This document shows, one piece after another, positions 4,057 through 61,702 of a DNA stretch of 64,000 nt. Where the stretch lies: positions 3,119,375-3,183,374 of the forward strand of contig NC_087072.1 in NCBI RefSeq assembly GCF_026151205.1. The letters are read 5' to 3'. The DNA comes from Bolinopsis microptera. Lineage: Eukaryota > Ctenophora > Tentaculata > Lobata > Bolinopsidae. Both the position numbers and the translations under genes were made by a program. Within the stretch, counting starts at the first letter, position 1. Each line of letters starts with the position of its first letter. The notes beneath the pieces were generated by a model. It was not told where the DNA came from. It worked only from the letters and a program-made list of their open reading frames with translations, and did not search any database.

Positions 4057-4583
4057 ACAGTGTGTCATATTCCAACTACTACACCATCCCTATGATTAGT
4101 GAGCCGGGTTCAATGTTAGACCGGACGAAGCATATGTATCGTGAACCGGGTTAATCAAGACCGGACGAAAAAATGGTTACATCTCAACAACGGATAATAC
4201 TACAGAGGTGCCATTACAGTTAAATTCTGTTACCTGAACTCTAATAAACAGTTTTGATATTATAGCATATACTATAATATTATGAAAGATATTTTACGAC
4301 AAATAGAGGTTGTTTACTCATTTATACACCAAAGGTTGGTGTTATTTTAACTAATTTATTATTGTTAATAAAGTTTATATATTGAGAATTTTATACAGTA
4401 GTCTATAGACCAATTAAATTATTTTACTGGTCACGTGTATGGTTAAGAGTTTTATGACATTGAATGAATCTATTTATTACGAGTATTAAGGACTGCTAGT
4501 ATATTTTATTTATTTGTTTTCACTTCTGCACGTTTAGGCAGTTGCTCTTGTGGCCAGAGTTTTAGAGTTATATATATATATAT
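2731..4583 (+). mobile_element. Nested plus-strand LINE, 5'-truncated
   Basis: A second, different LINE is inserted into the minus-strand one. Its left boundary follows GATGAGACTT at 2721-2730. Its right end is a (TA)n run at about 4569-4583, directly followed by the second GATGAGACTT at 4584-4593. It is 5'-truncated inside the RT domain, keeping the C-terminal half and a 3' UTR of about 530 bp. The 3' UTR holds two similar blocks, GTGAGCCGGGTTCA...GACCGGACGAAG and GTGAACCGGGTTAA...GACCGGACGAAA, near 4099-4170. Truncation, tail and target duplication are what target-primed reverse transcription leaves. Confidence 0.8.
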
Positions 4584-4593
4584 GATGAGACTT
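4584..4593. repeat. Right target-site duplication of nested LINE
   Basis: This is the second copy of GATGAGACTT, directly after the (TA)n tail of the nested LINE. Confidence 0.8.
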
Positions 4594-5622
4594 GAACTCG
4601 AAGCCCGTATCGTTCGGAGCATGTTCATTAAGAATTTTCCATACATGAATAATAGAATAACGCTCTCTCCGCCTCTGGAGGGACATCAACTTAAGCTTCT
4701 TCAGCCTGTCCCAGTACTGGAGATCACGGCAGCCAGATATCTTTCTAGTAAAGGATCTCTGTACAGTCTCCAGCTTTTGTATCTCTGTGACTTTTGTAGG
4801 GTTCCAGACTGGACAGCAGTACTCTAGCTTGGAGCGAACCATGCTTTTGTATAAAGTCAGCATGACTACTTGTGACCGGTCTCTAAAGGCACTCAATGTC
4901 CAAGCCGCCATTTTTCTAGCTCCTTGAACTGTCTTCTCAATGTGAGGACCCCATGACCTACTGCTGCTAACATACACTCCAAGGTCTCTGACAGTTTCCT
5001 GTGATGATATTGCGTGTCCTTTTGGTGTAGTATACTCAACAGTCTCTGGGTAGAACGGGAGCTCTCTTAGAGCGTTTGATCCATTCAGGGGGTAGTTTAC
5101 AACCTCAAACTTCTGTTCGTGTAGCTCCATGTTGTTAACACGTGACCACTCGATGACTATGTTGAGATCATCTTGCAGTAACTCCACACTACTCATTCCT
5201 CGGATAGCCCCAATCAGCTTTGTGTCGTCTGCAAAGCTGAATCCGTTACTATAGCTAATGCTGTTCAACAGATCGTTGATGTACAGGATAAATAGGATCG
5301 GTCCTAGGACTGTCCCTTGTGGCACCCCACTTGCCACTGGCTGGAAGGATGATTTGCGACCTTCAACAACGACTGTTTGTTTTCTGTTTAGCAAAAACTC
5401 TTTGATCCACCTTAAAACCTGACCACCAATTCCGTATCGACCAAGCTTGGCTAGCAGCACTGCATGGTCGACCTTGTCAAAAGCTTTGGCAAAGTCGAGG
5501 TAAATCACATCAACTTCTTCATCATTGTTGAGTGATTTGTAGATCTGTTCGATGTGACTGAGAAGCTGCGTCATGCAACTCCTCTTTTTTCTGAACCCAT
5601 GCTGGTTCGTATTGATCATCAT
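4594..5622 (-). pseudogene. LINE ORF2, reverse transcriptase core
   Basis: This continues the minus-strand LINE frame. The reverse transcriptase catalytic motifs are intact: YLDFAKAFDKVDH (first aspartate, motif A), SGVPQGTVLGPILF (motif B) and FADDTKL (motif C, the FADD variant of YADD). The thumb-like region follows, with LEYCCPVWNP and LKLMSLQRRRERYS, typical of CR1/L2/Jockey elements. The frame is broken at FKSH by the insertion whose (TA)n tail ends at 4583. The open frame reads on into insert sequence down to 4534, which is artefactual. Confidence 0.9.
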
Positions 5623-5628
5623 GTTCTC

Positions 5629-6426
5629 TTACAAATGACGAACCAGGTTTTTTCTGATTACACGCTCAAATGTCTTTATGATGTGCGAGGTTAAAGACAC
5701 TGGTCTATAGTTTGCTGGGTCCGTTCTGTCCCCCTTCTTATAGATAGGGGTGATATATTGGGTCTTTAATTCCGCTGGTATATACCCACTGCTGAACGAT
5801 TCCTGCCAGAGGAGTGTAAGGGGGTCTGCAAGTTGTTCTTTGCAGGCTGTGAGTATCCTAGCAGGAATCTCTCCGTCAGGTGCGGCCGAATAGGGATCCA
5901 GTTCTCCTAATGCTTCAATGATATCTTTTCTTGTGAAGCTTAGCTCGTTGAATCCGGAATCCAGTCCCTGAGGTAATCCTTGACTCTTCATACATTCATC
6001 AATATCGGCACTCATAGGGTTACTAAATACCTTCTGGTACTGCTTCTGAAGTAACTCTGCCTTGATACTGGGGTCGTCCACTAATACCCCAGTCTCATCT
6101 CTCAACACCGGGATCGTAGATCTGGTCTTCTGGAGACGCTTGGCATACGAAAAGAAGTATTTGGGGTTCTTCTTTATTGCATCGACTGCCCGGAGTTCTT
6201 CTTTGTTCAGTTTCTCAAGGGTCCCTTCCTGTATGAAGTAACACAGCAGTGAAACCTCCGTTTTCAGTTTAGGGATTAAACTCGAGCTAGGATTCATTTC
6301 CTGTAATGCACGTATCCTAGCATTCATCTTCCTTCGTCTTCTTTTCATGACATAAACGAGCTTATTCCCTCTTCTCTTTCTTGAGGTAATCTCCGCTGCA
6401 CTTTCTTTCTTTGGGGAGAACTCCAA
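5629..6426 (-). pseudogene. LINE ORF2, pre-RT and RT N-terminal part
   Basis: This is an open minus-strand stretch of 265 codons, with no proper ATG at its upstream end. A basic segment (KRRRRK near residue 30) is followed by the region leading into reverse transcriptase, including APDGEIPARIL and the RT entry motif YKKGDRTDPANYRPVSLTS. It ends at a TAA (5629-5631). The same reading frame resumes immediately with the next piece at 5622, so this is a nonsense mutation and not a frameshift. There is no endonuclease domain upstream. Elements of this kind copy their RNA at a nicked target, but this copy cannot make a full protein. Confidence 0.85.
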
Positions 6427-6569
6427 GGTTATCTAGAGCACTGTTAGCTTGAACACTTCCAGAAAAGCGTAGTTTCATTTTGACATATTAACCTTTGTCT
6501 TTGTTACTACAGCTGCCAAATTAGTATCCCTTGGTCTAAAATGTTGTAGATTATGTCAACATTTTCAAA

Positions 6570-45373: not shown

Positions 45374-48300
45374 ATGGTTATAGAGAAATTGTTAAGCACG
45401 CTTCCTGTATCCCCCTTTTTCCTCATAGCCCTGGTTATTGCTTACGGCTTGCTGTCATTCAGAATCAATCAGAAGAAATACCATCACATACCAGGACCAC
45501 AGCCATGGTGAGTAATTACCGTTAAACAGCAGATTTCCTTTTACAATTACCTGCTCTCTCGTATTGCAACAATATTTAGTCACGAGTTGGCCAGGGTATA
45601 TTGTCACTCTTCTCATTTCCTTTTACCTGCTCTCTCGTTTTGCAACAATATTTAGTCACGAGTTGGCCAGGGTGTATTGTCTGTGTCACTCTTCTCATCT
45701 CTTTTACCTCATATCTCATATTTAACTTTCCTGTCTGTACTTAGTCTTCCGCCCCGATGGACTTTGCTCTGAACAAATCTGTATTTTCAGGCCCATCATT
45801 GGAAACTTTTTAGATATAAAGCCCTACCTAACTGGAGCTCTGACAGTACAGGATTGCTTTTTAAAATGGTGAGTACCGTTATGATTAAGTTAACTAGAAT
45901 TAAGATTGTCGGTAGGGAGCAAGATTGGAAAGAAACCAATATTTAGTTGTGGGAGGCGAGTCCGGGAGCTAATGTACTGTAGCTGGGAGCAGTGTAACCT
46001 TACCCTCGTCGCGGGTCCGGTGCAGGTGGCGGCAACCCAACATACACCTTCCTTTCCAACAACTTTCTCCCACTTTCCACCTTCCACTCTACTGACCTGA
46101 TTCCAACTAGCAACCTCCAGTTTACCCAAATATCAGGGCGACTGGTCCTTCAAGTAGACTGGCACGTTGTCCACTTTTAAAAACTGTTCTACTTTACTTC
46201 ACCTCTGTTCAAAGGCACCGACTTAATAACCTGTAAAAGTATTTCACTGCAATATGTATCGTTGATAGTATTTGAAATATTTGCCCGTCCAGGTCGATTC
46301 AGTTTGGGTCGCTGTATAAGCTTTGGATCGGCAACAAACCCTGGATACTGGTATCCGAGCCGGAGTACGTGAAGGAGATACTGTGCGGCAAAAACTTCCC
46401 TAAAGATCCTACTTACTACAGCCCTATTGGGACACTCTATGGTCAGAGGTAATTATTCGAAGATTATTCTGATAAAATTCCCCGTAGACAGTGTTTAAAA
46501 GGCAGACGTATGCCTGATCCCGGGCTTCAAATCGCATCGGAAAAGGGCGATATCCTGATAAATATTGTCTAGTTTTAAAGGGTGGGTTCCCATGGTGCAC
46601 TGGTCGCATGACTGTGCGTCCCCTTACCACGTTGTCGGCTGATTGATGTTTTCCTTTGTTCAGGTTTGCTGGTGGTGGCAGTGCAATACAAACCAACCCG
46701 GTAAAGTATGATCAACAGAAGAAGATAACCAACATGGCTTATCACAAGAAATATCTTCCCAAGCACTGTCGGGCTACCTTATCGGTAAGCTACTACATTT
46801 TCTGCCGGAAACATGGCCTGACCTTTACCGCGGATACATCTGATCTGATATCACTTTATTAATCTAACGTATTAATAAATAACTTAATCTGATAAACGGT
46901 ACCTGATTCTGCGACACCAGCCTATTTCTACCCCGTCGTACTAGCTAAGAATAACAGTATTTACGGTGACTTGGTGTTATATTATACGACTAAAATGTAG
47001 GGCCAGTATTAACGAGGAACTGTACAGGTAGCAGGAAGATGGATGACAGCATTAGAAGACGAATCCGAGTGGTTCCCAATCTGTGATAAACTCGACAGTC
47101 TCTCTACCACCGCTCTCTGTAAGATTGCTTTTGACATGGACGTTCCTTTTGACTACAATGGTGACGAGGCAGCAGTTTACCAGATGGTCAATACTTGTTT
47201 TGATGGGATAAAAGACAAACTCTTCAACCCTTTAGGCTGCACGGTTGGTTACTTTGAAATTCTGTTAGGGTTTGTAACCTTGTTATTCTGTTAGGCTCGA
47301 CATTGGGAGGAGGCACGCCCTTGTAAATATAGGCACGTGGGAGTAACATCTGGTAGGGCTACCAGATTGAAACAATTTGAACAGACACCCGCGTTCGGGT
47401 CTATTCTAACTATGGGTTAATTGATAAGATTAATAATGTTCGTGGGTGATTATATTAACTTATTTCAGCTGCACTTTAAGAAAGTAGAGAGAGTTAGAAA
47501 AGCTGCCAAAGCTTTGAGAGAAGTCGGAGAAAACTTTATCAGAGGAACTTACGATAAGATCCGGAACGGAGACAAATTGCCTGATGCCATGTTCAGCTAC
47601 GTTCTCCAGGAAATTCACGAAGCCGGTAAATTTGCTTTTTTAAAAGAGTATTTCGTGAGAATTACGTTTCATTCTTTGCGGATTATTCAATTTTTCCAGA
47701 GGCTCGCCGAACTGAATTTCTTTAGAACTGAATTATAAACATTCTTCTTTTACGTAATATGGTTTAAAAGGGTTTTAAACATTTATCAATTAAATCATAT
47801 ATGATTATCCGGGTTTTAAAAAGAGCACTTTAATAAAGTAAACGTCAGGTTAAAAGAATTCCTAGTCTTAAAAACTTCATATTTTCACCTGTAACCGCTA
47901 GATTTGTATTCATTCGGCTTTTAGGAATTACAGAACATATAGTTCACAATGAAACTGTTTTTCAGGCGGCTCCTTTTCGCTGGAGGAGATAATTGACGAA
48001 TTCGTCGTCCAATTCATAGCAGGTAAATTCCCAAGACAATTTTCTTTTAACCTTCATTAGAAACAGCTTGTTACTTTTTCATTTCAGTTAAACATCAAAG
48101 TTTTTACTAGTTAGTGTCTGTATTACTTTGAACTCACATCAAAGGCCTTCTTTGTATAAAATGAGTGAGCTGAGGTAGTTTGTGCCTGTCTTTCTAATTA
48201 ATAAAGATAGATAATAAAGCTCATCTTTGAACTCAATATCAATCGTCTGCGAGCCAGAGAGTTCAACCCTAAAAGAGTGCCGTGTCAGGCTCTGCAAATA

Positions 48301-49934
48301 CATCCAATCTGACGAAGTCTGATCTGATGAATTTTGTTTCAGGCTCGGAAACTACCTCCAATTTAATGAAGTTTCTGTTAATGGAAGTGACAAAGAATCC
48401 TCATATTTACGAGAGGTGAGATCGAGTTGTTATTGACTTTTGTTATATAATTTCAAATGATTATGTACTTGATAACTGGTCAATCAAATACAACTTTATA
48501 TTTGGTGCCGCTAATGAATGTAGCCAAATTGAATCAAAAGTTTCAACACACCATGTATCGGGTTTAGACCTCCAGAAACCTTAAGTAGTACCTGCCCCAG
48601 CCACGCTGCTCAATTAGACCGAGATTTATGGTTTCTCGTAATGAATTGCTGACCTCGCATTATCACAGTAGAAGAAGTAATTACTTAATACCATTTTCGT
48701 TAATTGAGTTACCCCGGTGATTACTTAATGCTATGTTTTTTAATCGAGTTACCACGGCATCGCAGGTTGCAAGAGGAGATCGATAGTGTCATGTCCAGGA
48801 CAACAGCTGAAACCTTCTACACAGATCTCAGCGAAATGACATATCTGGAGCAGATCATGCAGGAAAGTCTCAGAATGTACCCTGTTGCTGCGGCGACCAC
48901 CCGAACTAATCACGTAGATACCATGCTCGGCAAGACTCTCATACCTGCTGGATCAACTATCATGGTGAGTTAAAGTGTGAATATCGGCTGGATCAGCTGA
49001 ACTTTATTTAACGTTAACGGTTTCTCGTACATTGGGCTTAGCGAACCTAGGGACCCAACTATGTCCTTTTTGCAATGGAAACCACCTCGTGGCTGGATAG
49101 AACAGAGATTTGAACCCATAATATTTCGCTTAAAAGAGGGAATCACTGAGCTACTCTGCCCCGCGGACGGTTAATATATTAATATTGATCACTGAACACC
49201 AGCTATTTTAATCATAGTATGGCGCAACTTGACCTATGCAACCTTTTAAACAAAATGTTTTAAATGTGTGTAGCTGTATATAAGCTAACGAGAATCCATG
49301 GAAACTGTATTGACCTGTGCCAAGTTACTTCTTGCGGTAACACACTTCCGAGCCAAAGCTTGTTGTCCCACGTGGCAGCTGGCTATTTCCACGTGGCACA
49401 AGGTTGCTGCCACGTGATTGGCTACTTTAGTCACGTTTCCTAAAACATGTGAACCTATCCTCAGGTGTGCTTTCACGTTCTACACAGACATCCCAGCCAC
49501 TTCGACAGACCAAACACCTTCGATCCGGACAGATGGGCTAAAGGGCAGCCAGCGTAAGTCTCCTTCAATTTCTACTAATCCTCTTGGCAAAATGTTGACA
49601 TTAAACAATCAGACTGTAGGCAATATCAAGGAATATACTACGATATCTCCAAATATTTAGACATGCCTACTGGCTAACTGTTCAGTCACTCCAAATTAAT
49701 TTCAGACCGATGCCGTTCACTTTCCTCCCGTTCTCTAGCGGACAGCGCGGTTGCACAGGCAAGCACCTGGCTAGACTAGAATGTAAGATCATGGTTGCAA
49801 GCCTCCTTTACCACTACAACTTAGAATGTCATCCTGACCAGAACTATGAGGTGACTACCACCCTCTCATCCCGGCCCAAATACAAAGTCTACATGAAGAT
49901 GACCAGTCGACGAAAACCTAGGTATGTTTTTTAG
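45374..49934 (+). CDS. Cytochrome P450, CYP46-like (11 exons, 502 aa)
   Basis: Haem-thiolate monooxygenase, probably anchored in the endoplasmic reticulum membrane. The exons are 45374-45507, 45791-45868, 46293-46448, 46664-46784, 47028-47243, 47469-47625, 47966-48022, 48343-48415, 48766-48964, 49465-49553 and 49706-49934. They sum to 1509 nt with all phases consistent. An N-terminal membrane segment (about 12-30) leads into the proline hinge IPGPQPWPIIGN (39-50). The I-helix AGSETT is at 306-311, ExxR (ESLR) at 364-367, FDPDRW at 416-421, and the haem motif FSSGQRGCTG at 436-445 with ligand Cys443. The helix-C WxxxR is altered to YDQQK (138-142). Length and motif order, and the local wording around helix I and the meander, resemble animal CYP46 (cholesterol 24-hydroxylase) most closely. 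The substrate is not known. The exon 5 donor (ACG|GTTGGT) is weak. Confidence 0.9.
45535..45699. repeat. 82-bp tandem duplication in P450 intron 1
   Basis: Two adjacent copies share TCCTTTTAC, CCTGCTCTCTCGT, TTGCAACAATATTTAGTCAC and GAGTTGGCCAGGGT. The second has a small TCTGTG insertion. It is a recent local duplication. Confidence 0.85.
49060..49175 (-). repeat. tRNA-derived SINE-like fragment in P450 intron
   Basis: Read on the minus strand, GGGGCAGAGTAGCTCAGTGATT (A-box-like) is followed about 30 bases later by GGGTTCAAATC (B-box-like) and then a non-tRNA tail. The internal promoter boxes are good, but the acceptor, T and anticodon stems do not pair properly. This favours a SINE or tRNA pseudogene over a functional tRNA. 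Confidence 0.4.
49369..49416. promoter_or_regulatory. CCACGTG cluster in P450 intron (3 sites)
   Basis: CACGTG at 49369, 49390 and 49411 is spaced exactly 21 bp apart, each preceded by C (CCACGTG). The 21-bp period places the sites on one face of the DNA helix (two turns). It lies 50 bp upstream of exon 10. A regulatory role is inferred. Confidence 0.4.
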
Positions 49935-55291: not shown

Positions 55292-56376
55292 ATATCAGAG
55301 CCTGCTAAGGTTCATTATATCAGAGCCTGCTAAGGTTCATTATATCAGAGCCTGCTAAGGTTCATTATATCAGAGCCTGCTAAGGTTCGTTATATCAGAG
55401 CCTGCTAAGGTTCGTTATATCAGAGCCTGCTAAGGTTCATTATATCAGAGCCTGCTAAGGTTCATTATATCAGAGCCTGCTAAGGTTCATTATATCAGAG
55501 CCTGCTAAGGTTCATTATATCAGAGCCTGCTAAGGTTCATTATATCAGAGCCTGCTAAGGTTCATTATATCAGAGCCTGCTAAGGTTCATTATATCAGAG
55601 CCAGCTAAGGTTCATTATGTCAGAGCCTGCTAAGGTTCATTATATCAGAGCCTGCAAAGGTTCATTATATCAGAGCCTGCTAAGGTTCATTATATCAGAG
55701 CCTGCTAAGGTTCATTATATCAGAGCCTGCTAAGGTTCATTATATCAGAGCCTGCAAAGGTTCATTATATCAGAGCCTGCTAAGGTTCATTATATCAGAG
55801 CCTGCTAAGGTTCATTATATCAGAGCCTGCTAAGGTTCATTATATCAGAGCCTGCTAAGGTTCATTATATCAGAGCCTGCTAAGGTTCATTATATCAGAG
55901 CCAGCTAAGGTTCATTATGTCAGAGCCTGCTAAGGTTCATTATATCAGAGCCTGCTAAGGTTCATTATATCAGAGCCTGCTAAGGTTCATTATATCAGAG
56001 CCTGCTAAGGTTCATTATATCAGAGCCTGCTAAGGTTCATTATATCAGAGCCTGCTAAGGTTCATTATATCAGAGCCTGCTAAGGTTCATTATATCAGAG
56101 CCTGCTAAGGTTCATTATATCAGAGCCTGCTAAGGTTCATTATATCAGAGCCTGCAAAGGTTCATTATATCAGAGCCTGCTAAGGTTCATTATATCAGAG
56201 CCTGCTAAGGTTCATTATATCAGAGCCTGCTAAGGTTCATTATATCAGAGCCTGCTAAGGTTCATTATATCAGAGCCTGCTAAGGTTCATTATATCAGAG
56301 CCTGCTAAGGTTCATTATATCAGAGCCTGCTAAGGTTCATTATATTTATATCAGAGCCTGCTAAGGTTCATTATAT
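55292..56376. repeat. 25-bp minisatellite, ~43 copies
   Basis: The tandem unit is CAGAGCCTGCTAAGGTTCAT plus TATAT, with exact 25-bp spacing. Rare variants (CCAGCTAAGG with ATGT, CCTGCAAAGG) recur. Bases 55561-55620 are identical to 55861-55920, giving a 300-bp (12-unit) higher-order repeat. A short TATATT insertion occurs near 56343. There are no variable spacers. Confidence 0.95.
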
Positions 56377-57119: not shown

Positions 57120-57157
57120 GTATAAAACCACTGCGCTAACCGAGGTAGAGTCAGATT
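57120..57157 (+). promoter_or_regulatory. TATA/initiator promoter of the peptide gene
   Basis: GTATAAAACC places a TATA box at 57121-57127. An initiator-like GTCAGATTT (A at about 57153) lies about 31 bp downstream. This leaves a 5' UTR of roughly 55 nt before the ATG at 57208. A related word combination (AATTAATCTTCG, then TATAAAACCAC) occurs at 54830-54870. Confidence 0.65.
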
Positions 57158-57207
57158 TTAACTGCTCATTTAGCTCACTTTAGTCGAAAGAAACAACTGT
57201 ATTCGAT

Positions 57208-57955
57208 ATGTTCCTGTTAGCTGTTACGGTGATGGCCGTCTTGGCGTGGTCAACTCAGTCTGCCGCGGTGGTGGAGAACTCAATTCTTAACGGAGAGACT
57301 GCTGATACTGAGGGTTCCTTCTTTGGTCTTCGGGGTAGGTAGCCTTAGCTGTTCTGATACACTACGAGTGAAAGGGTCGTTAGACTAAGACATAGTCATG
57401 CCGCCAATTTAGTATTGAGACCATTTTCATTAAGGCCATTTTCATTGATAAAACGCCAGTTGATTTCATGGAGCAATTGAAACTGAGGGGTGTCGATTAT
57501 CAATAAAACGGTTATGTTACCATAGGATCCATATTCGCTTTTCTCATTATAGATATGGATTTGGGGTTCATCGACCAACTGTTCATTAAACTGCCTATGC
57601 CCTATAATGGATAGAGATAGCACTATAAGTATAGGAACTATTAGCGCCCTTCAGTGGTGATATGGAACCACTATTGGCTCCATTTGTTACCAATTAATGG
57701 TTTCAGTGGATCCACATTAACTTATTCAACCACCTGTATTTTTATTCTAAATGGTGCAGTTTTGCTGTCTGTTATATTTTAATTTAATGATACACTTTCT
57801 TCCCGCCCTGAGGATATCAGTTATCTGTTTAACATGTACTTAGTTAGTTGACTCCAGAATTAACAGTACGGAATATTTCAGATTCAGAAGAGGAACTAAA
57901 GGACGAGATAGTAATGATGGACCGAGAAGACGGGAGCTACTTTGGGATGAAGTAA
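57208..57955 (+). CDS. Small secreted peptide-precursor-like protein (66 aa)
   Basis: Two exons, 57208-57334 and 57882-57955 (201 nt), with donor GG|GTAGGT and acceptor ATTTCAG. Residues 1-20 form a signal peptide (MFLLAVTVMAVLAWSTQSAA). The rest is acidic and contains the same motif twice: EGSFFGLR (35-42) at the end of exon 1 and DGSYFGMK (59-66) at the very C-terminus, each followed by a boundary. A monobasic Arg57 precedes the second copy. If the intron is retained, the first copy reads FFGLR-G-R-stop, a usable amidation signal. The FxGxR form resembles tachykinin-related peptides of invertebrates, but typical dibasic sites are missing in the spliced form. A neuropeptide or other secreted signal is inferred. 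It has a strong TATA promoter and compact gene structure. Confidence 0.65.
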
Positions 57956-60460
57956 AGAGGATTCACTGGAAACCCTTTGGTCCTAAAGATCCCTGGTTCT
58001 GCAGACTGATGATATTGATATCTGGGACTGTAGAATTGTAGGAGCCCCACATGAAGTCTCGCCAAACAGAGGGAGTGGTTTCAATCGGACTTTGCTCCAA
58101 GTTTCCTATTTAGTCCGCTTGTTCTTGATAAGTTCATTGATATTTTAAAGTTAAACACCTTGAAGTTGACTAAAACGTTTTGTTTGAATTTTCCTTTATG
58201 AAATTATTGCGAGTAAATTATTATATAAAGTATCTCACGTAACAAAATTAAAATGAAATATGCAAAATTGAATCCCAAATCTGATGGATAAGAATTAAAA
58301 ACTAATCAATCGTTGACAATGAAAAATATAACGTAGTGAGTGCAAACTAATTCGTGTACGTTAATAATGTACAAAGTTAGTACTTCTTTGATCTTTCAGT
58401 TTCTATTCGCTGATTTAACAATAACATTACTGGGCAGTGAGCCGGTGGGCAGCGCTCAGCCTGTCACTCCGCCATCTCTTCATTGTGTTTATAAACACTA
58501 ACTCTAAGCCTGGGTCCCAGGTTAACACGAACAATAATTTTGCCTGTGTAATGTATTTGTAATTGAACTATATAAATATTACAAGCACTTTCGTCATTCA
58601 AGCCCTATACGCTACAAGTACAACCACATGGAAACTAAAGCTAATGTATAGAGCCATTGTTAATGTTTACTGTGATCCATGATCGAAGAATCATATTGTG
58701 GCGCTACTTAATCGTTCTGCCTGCTTCCAATTTTGCATCGATCTCTATATCAAAAAACTGTTCAATCCTTTTGTCATTTAGCGACTAAACTAAAACATGA
58801 TTTGACCGCCATTGATCGATTTTAATTTCCAAAACAAATGAATGATGTGCGATTATTACTCAAAATTCAAATGAAAGTGAGTTATTAATAATTACTCCAA
58901 CTTCCAAGATTACCGAATACACGAGTAATGGTTATTTCTGATACATCACCCTGACCCTTACGAGTGCCAGTATTTCCCCGATTTAATGACACAATAATAT
59001 TATTTATACAGTCTGATTTGTTCCATCGACTTTTACTATTTGTTGCTCGCCAGTACCCATTTGCTATTTGTAGCATTTACCAAACCCGAAAGAGCACTTG
59101 TTTCGTTTCATCGTTATCAAATAAAACTTCTAAATATAGTAAAAACAACGCCCAAGTCTTATCTTCCTCTAAAAAATTAATGTAAATCTACCAATATCTC
59201 TTTTCATAAGCAGCTTAAATGACAAAAGTGCTTATTGAACCATCAACGAATAAATTTAGTTTACATAAAATTAAATCACAATCAGTGAAAGTAAATTGCT
59301 TTGGGATCTTCTTCTTCTTTTCATTGTTGAGCTCAGTCTATTGATGTTTCTACAAAATCGCTTATAGAATGAAGGGAAGAAAAAAATTACTTCACTATTT
59401 CCGATTAAGTTCCGCGGTGTAATTCAATCAACCTTTTAGTCCTGCATCCGGTTTGGGTTTGCATCGGGACCAGATTAGTACTGCTAATAGGATTCTAGTC
59501 AGGATCAGATTATAACGTTATGGTTTGACCTCGGGATTTGGGATTGTATTTTAGGGTTCATACGACGTGAGATATAATATCGAAGGGCAATTCAACTTGG
59601 TGCACCTCTAAAACCGCAATTTGGTATGATTTTATTAGTTCAAGCTAGAACTCTATATTATGATAGTCCTGTGCCTCATGACTACATGACAATCATGTTA
59701 AAGCAAGTCATTAATTAATTCTCGTGGGCTACACATTTGACATCGCTAGAGGAGAAATGATCGTGACTTTATCTTAAATCTAATGTGGTGTTTTGAAACT
59801 ACACAGATCATTCATAAATTATTTGTACGTGGTTACTATCATTAATTTTCAGTTTCAGTGTTTTATTTGACTAGTATTACGTTCGTGAAAGCACCACTCT
59901 CTGACTCTCAACTAAACTCTTTTATGATCCATTTACTTCGCTTGATGTAAGTTCGTTTGTTCTTCGCCAGTTGCCTTTTGAGTCATATTATGAACAACAA
60001 GTAGTATATTTAATGAACGCCCGTTGATAAGAACAAAATAGATAATAACCACTTCAATTATATTTATTTAACAATATTTATTTAACAATATAGTTATAAA
60101 GCAATGAAAGGCATTAGTTTGGTCAAATCAAACGGAACATATGCTATCAGACTTTCAACTGACTATGGCAGGGTTAAAACAGTTTTAACGCTAGCAACGA
60201 TCCCCTTTTACATAGTTCCACTCAATAAATGTATTTAATTGTAGTTGTGAAAATAGTTTAAAACTATATATAATAACTATATTGTTTAGGGTGTCTAACC
60301 TAAAACCTTATAGCTGGACAATGCAGACCATTGCTGAAATTATCTGTTTATATTGTTTGACTATTCTTTATCTTCGACACCACATTTCCACTTCTAAGAT
60401 ATTCATAACCACGTTTCTACGAAGCATTACTAAACTGGTTCGTTTCAAGGTTTGCAGGAA
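57956..60460. other. Gene-free stretch
   Basis: A weak ATTAAA at about 58247 could end the peptide gene. Open frames at 58885-59185 on both strands are unsupported. Bases 60221-60259 match 20319-20357 at 38 of 39 positions. Confidence 0.35.
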
Positions 60461-60467
60461 TCTGACG

Positions 60468-61702
60468 ATGGCTTGTTGTGAATCATGTGGTAGCCAAACT
60501 GCCCAAAAGTGTGGTAACTGCAAAAAAGTTTGGTATTGTAGCAGAAATTGTCAGAAGGAGGATTGGAAGGGTCACAAAAATTATTGTGGGCCTTTTGAAG
60601 TGAAAGAATGTCCAGGAAAAGGATTGGGACTGTTCGCGACCCGTGATCTGGCAATTGGGGACCTGATTATCAGGGAGGATCCCATTTTGTATATTGAAGG
60701 GGGTACAGATCAAATTTTACAGAATCCTGATGTATTTAAAGCTGCCTTTGAAAAGTTGGACAAATCCGATAAGGAACGAATTCTGGCACTTAGTGGGGCT
60801 CATTCGAATAATCTCGTTAAGATTTTTGGAGTGCCGCTGTCGAACGGAGGAGAATGGTAAATTTTATTCCATTTTTGGAACATAATTAAAATATTTATGA
60901 TATTTACTGATAAAACTGGCTTATGATTAAAGCCTAAAGGATTTGTAAAATTACTTGGTGAACATTATAACGGTACTCAGTACAGCTGAGAATTTACAAG
61001 AATGGGCTATAAATAATTTGTTAACCATGGCCATTTTATTTCAGGGAAACTGCACACAGAATATTTACTAATAATTGTATAGTAGCTAACAGATATCAAG
61101 ACGCAGCGTTATTCTACACAATAAGTAGAATAAATCACAGTTGTTCACCGAACGTAGAGTGGAGCTACGTAGAGAACAATTCTCAAGCGAAGGAAATTAG
61201 GGCTCTAAGAAAAATCCAGAAAGACGAGGAAATTTTAGCAGACTATATCGCAGAGTCCGGTAAATTTGCGGTGACCAGGAAAAGAAAGGCACTACTTCAG
61301 ATAAAGTTCGGTTTCGCTTGCATGTGTTCTCTCTGTTCGTCGGATCACTTTCTAAATGACATATTGAGAGTGAGATTGCAGAAACTTTCTCATCATATCC
61401 GGGCTTCTGAAAACCTAAACAACACTGCTAGAGCTGCTCTTGAAAAGTGCCAAATACTGGCATTGGAAAATTGCAACGATCTCCGTCACGAGCTGCCAAT
61501 GGCTTATCTTGATCTGTACGAGATTCTCCGCGATATCAAAATGTCTGGCCTCAAACTAAGACCTCTTGACGGCATGGTGCCAAACCATGAATTTTACAAA
61601 CAGAAATCATTGGAAATAATTGAACAAACTAAACTAGCGCATAGTAAAGCAGCATTTACGGGAAGAATGAGAGATCTTGCACTGCGCCATCTTCAAGTAT
61701 GA
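60468..61702 (+). CDS. MYND-SET protein methyltransferase-like (348 aa)
   Basis: Two exons, 60468-60856 and 61045-61702 (1047 nt), with GTAAAT donor and TTTCAG acceptor. Start chosen at MACCESC (GACGATGG context). The 62 in-frame residues upstream are not protein-like, and an acceptor-like TTTGCAG precedes the ATG. An N-terminal MYND zinc finger has ligands C4, C7, C15, C18, C24, C28, H36 and C40. The SET domain follows: GKGLGLFAT (50-58, cofactor loop), RINHSCSPNV (158-167), ADYI with the catalytic-type Tyr197, then post-SET cysteines C222, C224 and C227. Unlike SMYD1-5, where MYND is inserted inside SET, here it comes first and SET is continuous. The C-terminal 120 residues look helical. 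The substrate, a histone or other protein lysine, is unknown. AATAAA at 62139-62144 may be the poly(A) signal. Confidence 0.85.

Follow-up and report, generated by a model that had tools for sequence, protein, structure and literature searches.

The window analyzed here is a 64,000-nucleotide stretch of contig NC_087072.1 from the ctenophore Bolinopsis microptera, whose assembly holds 97.23% of its bases in 13 chromosome-scale scaffolds (PMC10232365). The window contains a LINE-like element with reverse-transcriptase frames recognized by eye (4534-6432, reverse strand) and a P450 gene, CYP46-like by eye, whose last ten exons are stop-free (45791-49934). A tandem array of 43 copies of a 25-nt unit (97% matches) occupies 55292-56376 and ends about 0.8 kb 5' of the start codon of a small two-exon gene, hereafter the twin-motif gene; 3' of this gene lie MYND/SET frames, SMYD-like by eye (60216-61702, forward strand). 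An Rfam scan of the whole window matched nothing. Genome searches were run on 264.65 Mb in 232 contigs. An Antp-type homeodomain query, with 50 candidates scored and part of the genome covered, gave 19 matches, none above 55% identity and thus none of Hox grade, which leaves absence unproven. The lack of a Hox-grade homeodomain is expected of a ctenophore.

The twin-motif gene lies on the forward strand. Coding exon 1 (57208-57334) encodes a signal-like start, an acidic stretch and the motif EGSFFGLR (57310-57333) at its C-terminal end, and terminates in phase 1 with CTT CGG G. The predicted intron (57335-57881, 547 nt) begins with the donor GTAGGT (CGGG|GTAGGTAG, GT at 57335-57336) and ends at 57881 with the acceptor ATTTCAG, which is pyrimidine-poor with 6 of 13 pyrimidines, compared with 4 to 11 in the ten P450 acceptors examined. 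Coding exon 2 (57882-57955) encodes an acidic spacer and the motif DGSYFGMK (57929-57952) immediately 5' of the stop codon TAA (57953-57955). The spliced frame of 201 nt corresponds to 66 amino acids plus the stop, with the predicted product MFLLAVTVMAVLAWSTQSAAVVENSILNGETADTEGSFFGLRDSEEELKDEIVMMDREDGSYFGMK. A TATA-like box, TATAAA, is located at 57121-57126, 87 nt 5' of the ATG, where it may serve as a promoter element. The predicted signal peptide MFLLAVTVMAVLAWSTQSAA (57208-57267) was recognized by hydropathy, with cleavage after SAA judged by eye; its best 11-residue stretch, FLLAVTVMAVL, has a mean hydropathy of 2.87. The remaining mature part of 46 residues is strongly acidic (13 D/E versus 4 K/R), and the protein has neither a cysteine nor a dibasic site. 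Each motif copy has D or E just before it and R or K at its end.

These observations confirm the two-exon frame of the first-pass annotation, made from the sequence alone: the coordinates and frame of its 66 codons and both motifs are exact, and a signal-like start and a TATAAA are present where it had reported a signal peptide and a TATA/initiator promoter. Overall, its description of a putative two-exon gene for a small secreted protein with a duplicated GS(F/Y)FG(L/M)(R/K) motif stands; its link to tachykinins and its use of a Gly-Arg in the intron as evidence do not. The twin-motif frame is probably a coding sequence. In a genome search that passes over very common words, 57120-58160 matched nothing but its own locus.

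The likeness of the two motif copies exceeds chance. EGSFFGLR and DGSYFGMK form the best 8-mer pair in the mature part, with a BLOSUM62 score of 31 that was reached in none of 4000 8-mer shuffles of the mature part; in the 7-mer version, three of 4000 shuffles equaled the observed score. In the unmasked window, 69 of 550 stop-free 46-residue pieces reach 31. Because the window is rich in tandem arrays, the control was repeated with 52 arrays masked, and none of the 399 remaining stop-free pieces reached this score. A six-frame scan of the window finds just two 8-mers scoring at least 26 against EGSFFGLR, namely the copies themselves. Outside the window four more were found, all in loci picked for carrying the motif: EGSYFGVR in locus L015 scores 36, above the second copy, in a frame with stops, and the other three score 30, 28 and 27. 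The two copies are identical at 4 of 8 residues as protein, with all eight pairs positive, and at 14 of 24 bases as DNA, including a change of serine codon family. Random substitution gives an equal protein likeness in 22 of 400,000 trials, a neutral-substitution test biased in the pair's favor because the pair was picked for its protein similarity. A filter requiring a hydrophobic start and acidic residues is passed by the twin-motif protein and by none of the 158 ATG-started window ORFs of 40-140 amino acids.

Elsewhere in the genome, the codon pattern for GS(F/Y)FG(L/M)(R/K), which spans most codons and admits some other residues too, has 12 matches versus 7 in a reversed control, and two of the 12 are this gene. 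The one examined of the ten others, GSYFGLK at C9:6018038, was rejected as a paralog since a stop shortly before the motif breaks its frame. The wider pattern (D/E)GS(F/Y)FG has 85 matches versus 29 in the reversed control, of which 21 and 18 belong, by our count, to two recurrent sequences; the only matches less than 2 kb apart are the two copies of this gene. Among the other 83 matches, eight were inspected with their flanking stretch, and none has a signal-peptide frame 5' of the motif there. The recurrent sequences, GATGGGAGTTACTTTGG (21 occurrences by our own count) and GACGGTAGGTATTTTGG (18 occurrences), are scattered over the chromosomes and are apparently two dispersed repeats, with DGSYFG and DGRYFG as their translations in one frame. 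At the DNA level, copy 2 matches GATGGGAGTTACTTTGG at 15 of 17 bases and differs at two; blastn of the gene against locus L016, the one copy of GATGGGAGTTACTTTGG compared of the 21, gave no match. A genome search for a paralog of the twin-motif gene scored three candidates, namely its own two exons and a chance-level match (E 1.05), and so found none.

Family searches yielded several candidates that were rejected. In Pfam, the whole protein weakly matched an IFT80 propeller at E 0.0092 with 15.2 bits, against a cut-off of 27, and this reading was set aside because the mature part alone has no Pfam match. NCBIfam gave one match far under its cut-off (E 0.078), and the PDB gave WTAP at E 1.1 and 2. 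A full-text literature search with the motif and segments of it, covering article text, returned only an unrelated plant study; the motif may be listed in supplementary files.

Ctenophore peptide precursors of similar design are present in the same genome. C2 carries four tandem FGLamide-like precursor genes (C2:20009432-20024019, forward strand; loci L026, L027, L025/L019 and L028), located at 20009432, 20010600, 20012729 and 20023831; the encoded peptide pairs are QAFGLG/QGFGFG, QTIGWG/QSLGLG, QTFGLG/QHFGVG and QTIGWG/QHLGLG. All four proteins have 68-75 residues, a signal-like start, acidic residues and an unbroken frame. Their common layout is Q-x-(F/I)-G-(L/W)-G, an acidic spacer, D/E, and Q-x-(F/L)-G-(L/F/V)-G; all eight copies start with Gln and end with a Gly amide donor, and D or E stands directly before six of them and G before two. 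The antibody against Bolinopsis mikado FGLamide was based on the C-terminus QAFGLG, and published FGLamide precursors include Bolinopsis mikado FGLa and Mnemiopsis ML030511a (PMC9525235). We tentatively assigned the C2 genes to the FGLamide family because one of them holds QAFGLG. QAFGLG has four genome matches, one within a precursor; the single genome match of QAFGLGK was discarded, its frame not being precursor-like. With one C2 member as the query, tblastn at E up to 10 scored four candidates, the query itself and its three cluster mates. In the 36 kb around the cluster, the hydrophobic-start-plus-acidic filter (or two motifs) lists five ORFs, four of which are the cluster genes. Pfam searches with the four proteins gave nothing beyond chance (E 0.11 and 0.21).

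The twin-motif gene and the C2 genes share a size below 80 amino acids, a signal-like start, and two short FG peptides separated by an acidic spacer, with an acidic residue before both copies in the former and before 6 of 8 in the latter. They differ in that the twin-motif copies start with GS and end with R or K, whereas the C2 copies run from Gln to the amide-donor Gly, and in that a phase-1 intron divides the twin-motif gene, whereas the C2 frames are unbroken. In an hhalign comparison of the twin-motif protein with a profile of the four C2 sequences, homology was not detectable (probability 0.3%, E 0.22), so that this is a likeness of design and not shown kinship.

Taken together, these features suggest that the twin-motif gene is probably a small signaling-peptide precursor peculiar to comb jellies. 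It displays the general marks of short-peptide precursors, namely a signal-like start and a short motif that recurs at possible points of cleavage. In Bolinopsis mikado precursors, D/E are described as major cleavage sites besides basic residues (PMC9525235), which makes the boundaries E|GSFFGLR and D|GSYFGMK plausible. We thus propose that the predicted 66-residue precursor would enter the secretory pathway and be cleaved behind the acidic residue that precedes each motif, its other boundary being the basic residue or stop that follows. This would release GSFFGL(R) and GSYFGM(K), neither of them amidated, both of which may act as extracellular signals, probably via a receptor of their own, and splicing would merely take out the phase-1 intron between the copies. 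To this specific form of the proposal, a ctenophore-lineage secreted precursor releasing two non-amidated signaling peptides, we give about an even chance on the strength of the sequence features.

The first-pass annotation had favored another use of the intron, in which splicing would choose between an amidated, tachykinin-like FFGLR peptide from the retained intron and a two-motif precursor from the spliced form. Its observation holds: read through the intron, the exon 1 frame ends FFGLR-G-R-stop at 57342, and FFGLR fits the FxGxR of protostome tachykinin-related peptides. In addition, were this the sole intron, a transcript that keeps it would carry no exon junction further downstream. When the exon-final G is in phase 1, the read-through codon is always GGT, hence Gly, and the next codon is set by donor positions +3 to +5. 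Among nine P450 donors examined, eight follow G and three would read Gly-Lys in phase 1. With the Gly arising by necessity and Gly-Lys in three of nine donors, the Gly-Arg at the retained intron is unremarkable and cannot serve as evidence of amidation, although the intron itself may be retained. In the spliced form, the copies end in FGLR-D and FGMK-stop, so copy 2 lacks a Gly, and Gly-Arg occurs only in the unspliced reading. None of 21 alternative acceptors at 57.4-60.2 kb, for which at least 8 of 13 pyrimidines were required (a cut-off that would exclude the proposed acceptor too, with 6 of 13), supplied a Gly-basic or a second motif. The tachykinin link fares no better: tachykinins are described throughout bilaterians, with FxGxR-amide in protostomes (PMC6880623), and the host is a ctenophore. 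Compared with tachykinin-related peptides, copy 2 ends in Lys, and the gene has neither GKR-spaced copies nor a Gly and basic residue after its spliced copies. The exact FxGxR-Gly-Lys-Arg pattern has 44 genome matches versus 33 in the reversed control; copies of the FxGxRGKR type do not occur in the twin-motif gene, and their only cluster genome-wide is an FQGRRGKR array of different make. We consider a splice switch of this kind very unlikely, and just as unlikely its fuller version, in which the amidated FFGLR would converge on bilaterian tachykinins and the spliced form would give two non-amidated relatives; if true, splicing and not the coding frame would supply the amidation signal. A-type allatostatins, a bilaterian family with the signature Y/FxFGL-amide, share the FGL core, but the twin-motif copies lack a Gly after the Leu and have the wrong residue at the Y/F position.

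A tandem array was noted on C10 at about 12021.7-12023.2 kb (locus L004, 1200-2700), where a 42-nt unit reads SADLQSFQGRRGKR, with about 33 RRGKR units by eye and 26 exact pattern matches. It resembles a precursor with many copies of an amidated peptide (TFQamide of Bolinopsis mikado is a name to compare; PMC9525235). The array may instead be a minisatellite because one unit of 41 nt throws the reading out of frame, more than one frame stays open and a signal exon was not seen.

Three further explanations bear on the twin-motif gene. The product could be a small secreted protein without a signaling role (in mucus, epithelium, adhesive or digestive cells), its motif being structural or binding and never cut. 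This would fit the sequence facts equally, given the missing amide-donor Gly, the missing dibasic site and a mature part that Pfam does not match; against it, a short, acidic, cysteine-free protein with a D/E-preceded motif pair has the layout of the FGLamide-like precursors, and we regard it as unlikely, though deserving serious weight. A closer tie to those precursors, in which the gene is a divergent FGLamide-like relative with its amide-donor Gly swapped for R/K, would account for the similar size (66 versus 68-75 amino acids), the signal-like start, the two copies with an xFG(L/M/F) core, the acidic spacer and the D/E before the copies; the weak hhalign alignment also matches the first copies to each other. 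The hhalign statistics, the restriction of the tblastn matches to the cluster and the intron absent from all four C2 frames speak against such descent, which appears quite improbable. It is likewise improbable, if a little less so, that there is no gene at all and that a chance signal-like ORF lies upstream of a chance or repeat-derived motif. The pyrimidine-poor acceptor, the missing paralog and the resemblance of copy 2 to the dispersed 17-base sequence would favor this, but the shuffle, repeat-masked and six-frame controls, together with a stretch that matches nothing but itself in the genome, argue against it.

The two-peptide precursor, which we prefer among these readings, touches a wider question. 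It is debated whether ctenophore neurons and the neurons of other animals have a common origin, and the repertoire of peptides enters into that argument. A single origin has been argued for in a study whose mass-spectrometry survey placed special focus on amidated peptides (PMC9525235). A non-amidated two-copy precursor, as the twin-motif gene may be, is of the kind that an amidation-focused survey can miss, and the four-gene FGLamide-like cluster offers a concrete yardstick in the search for more precursors.
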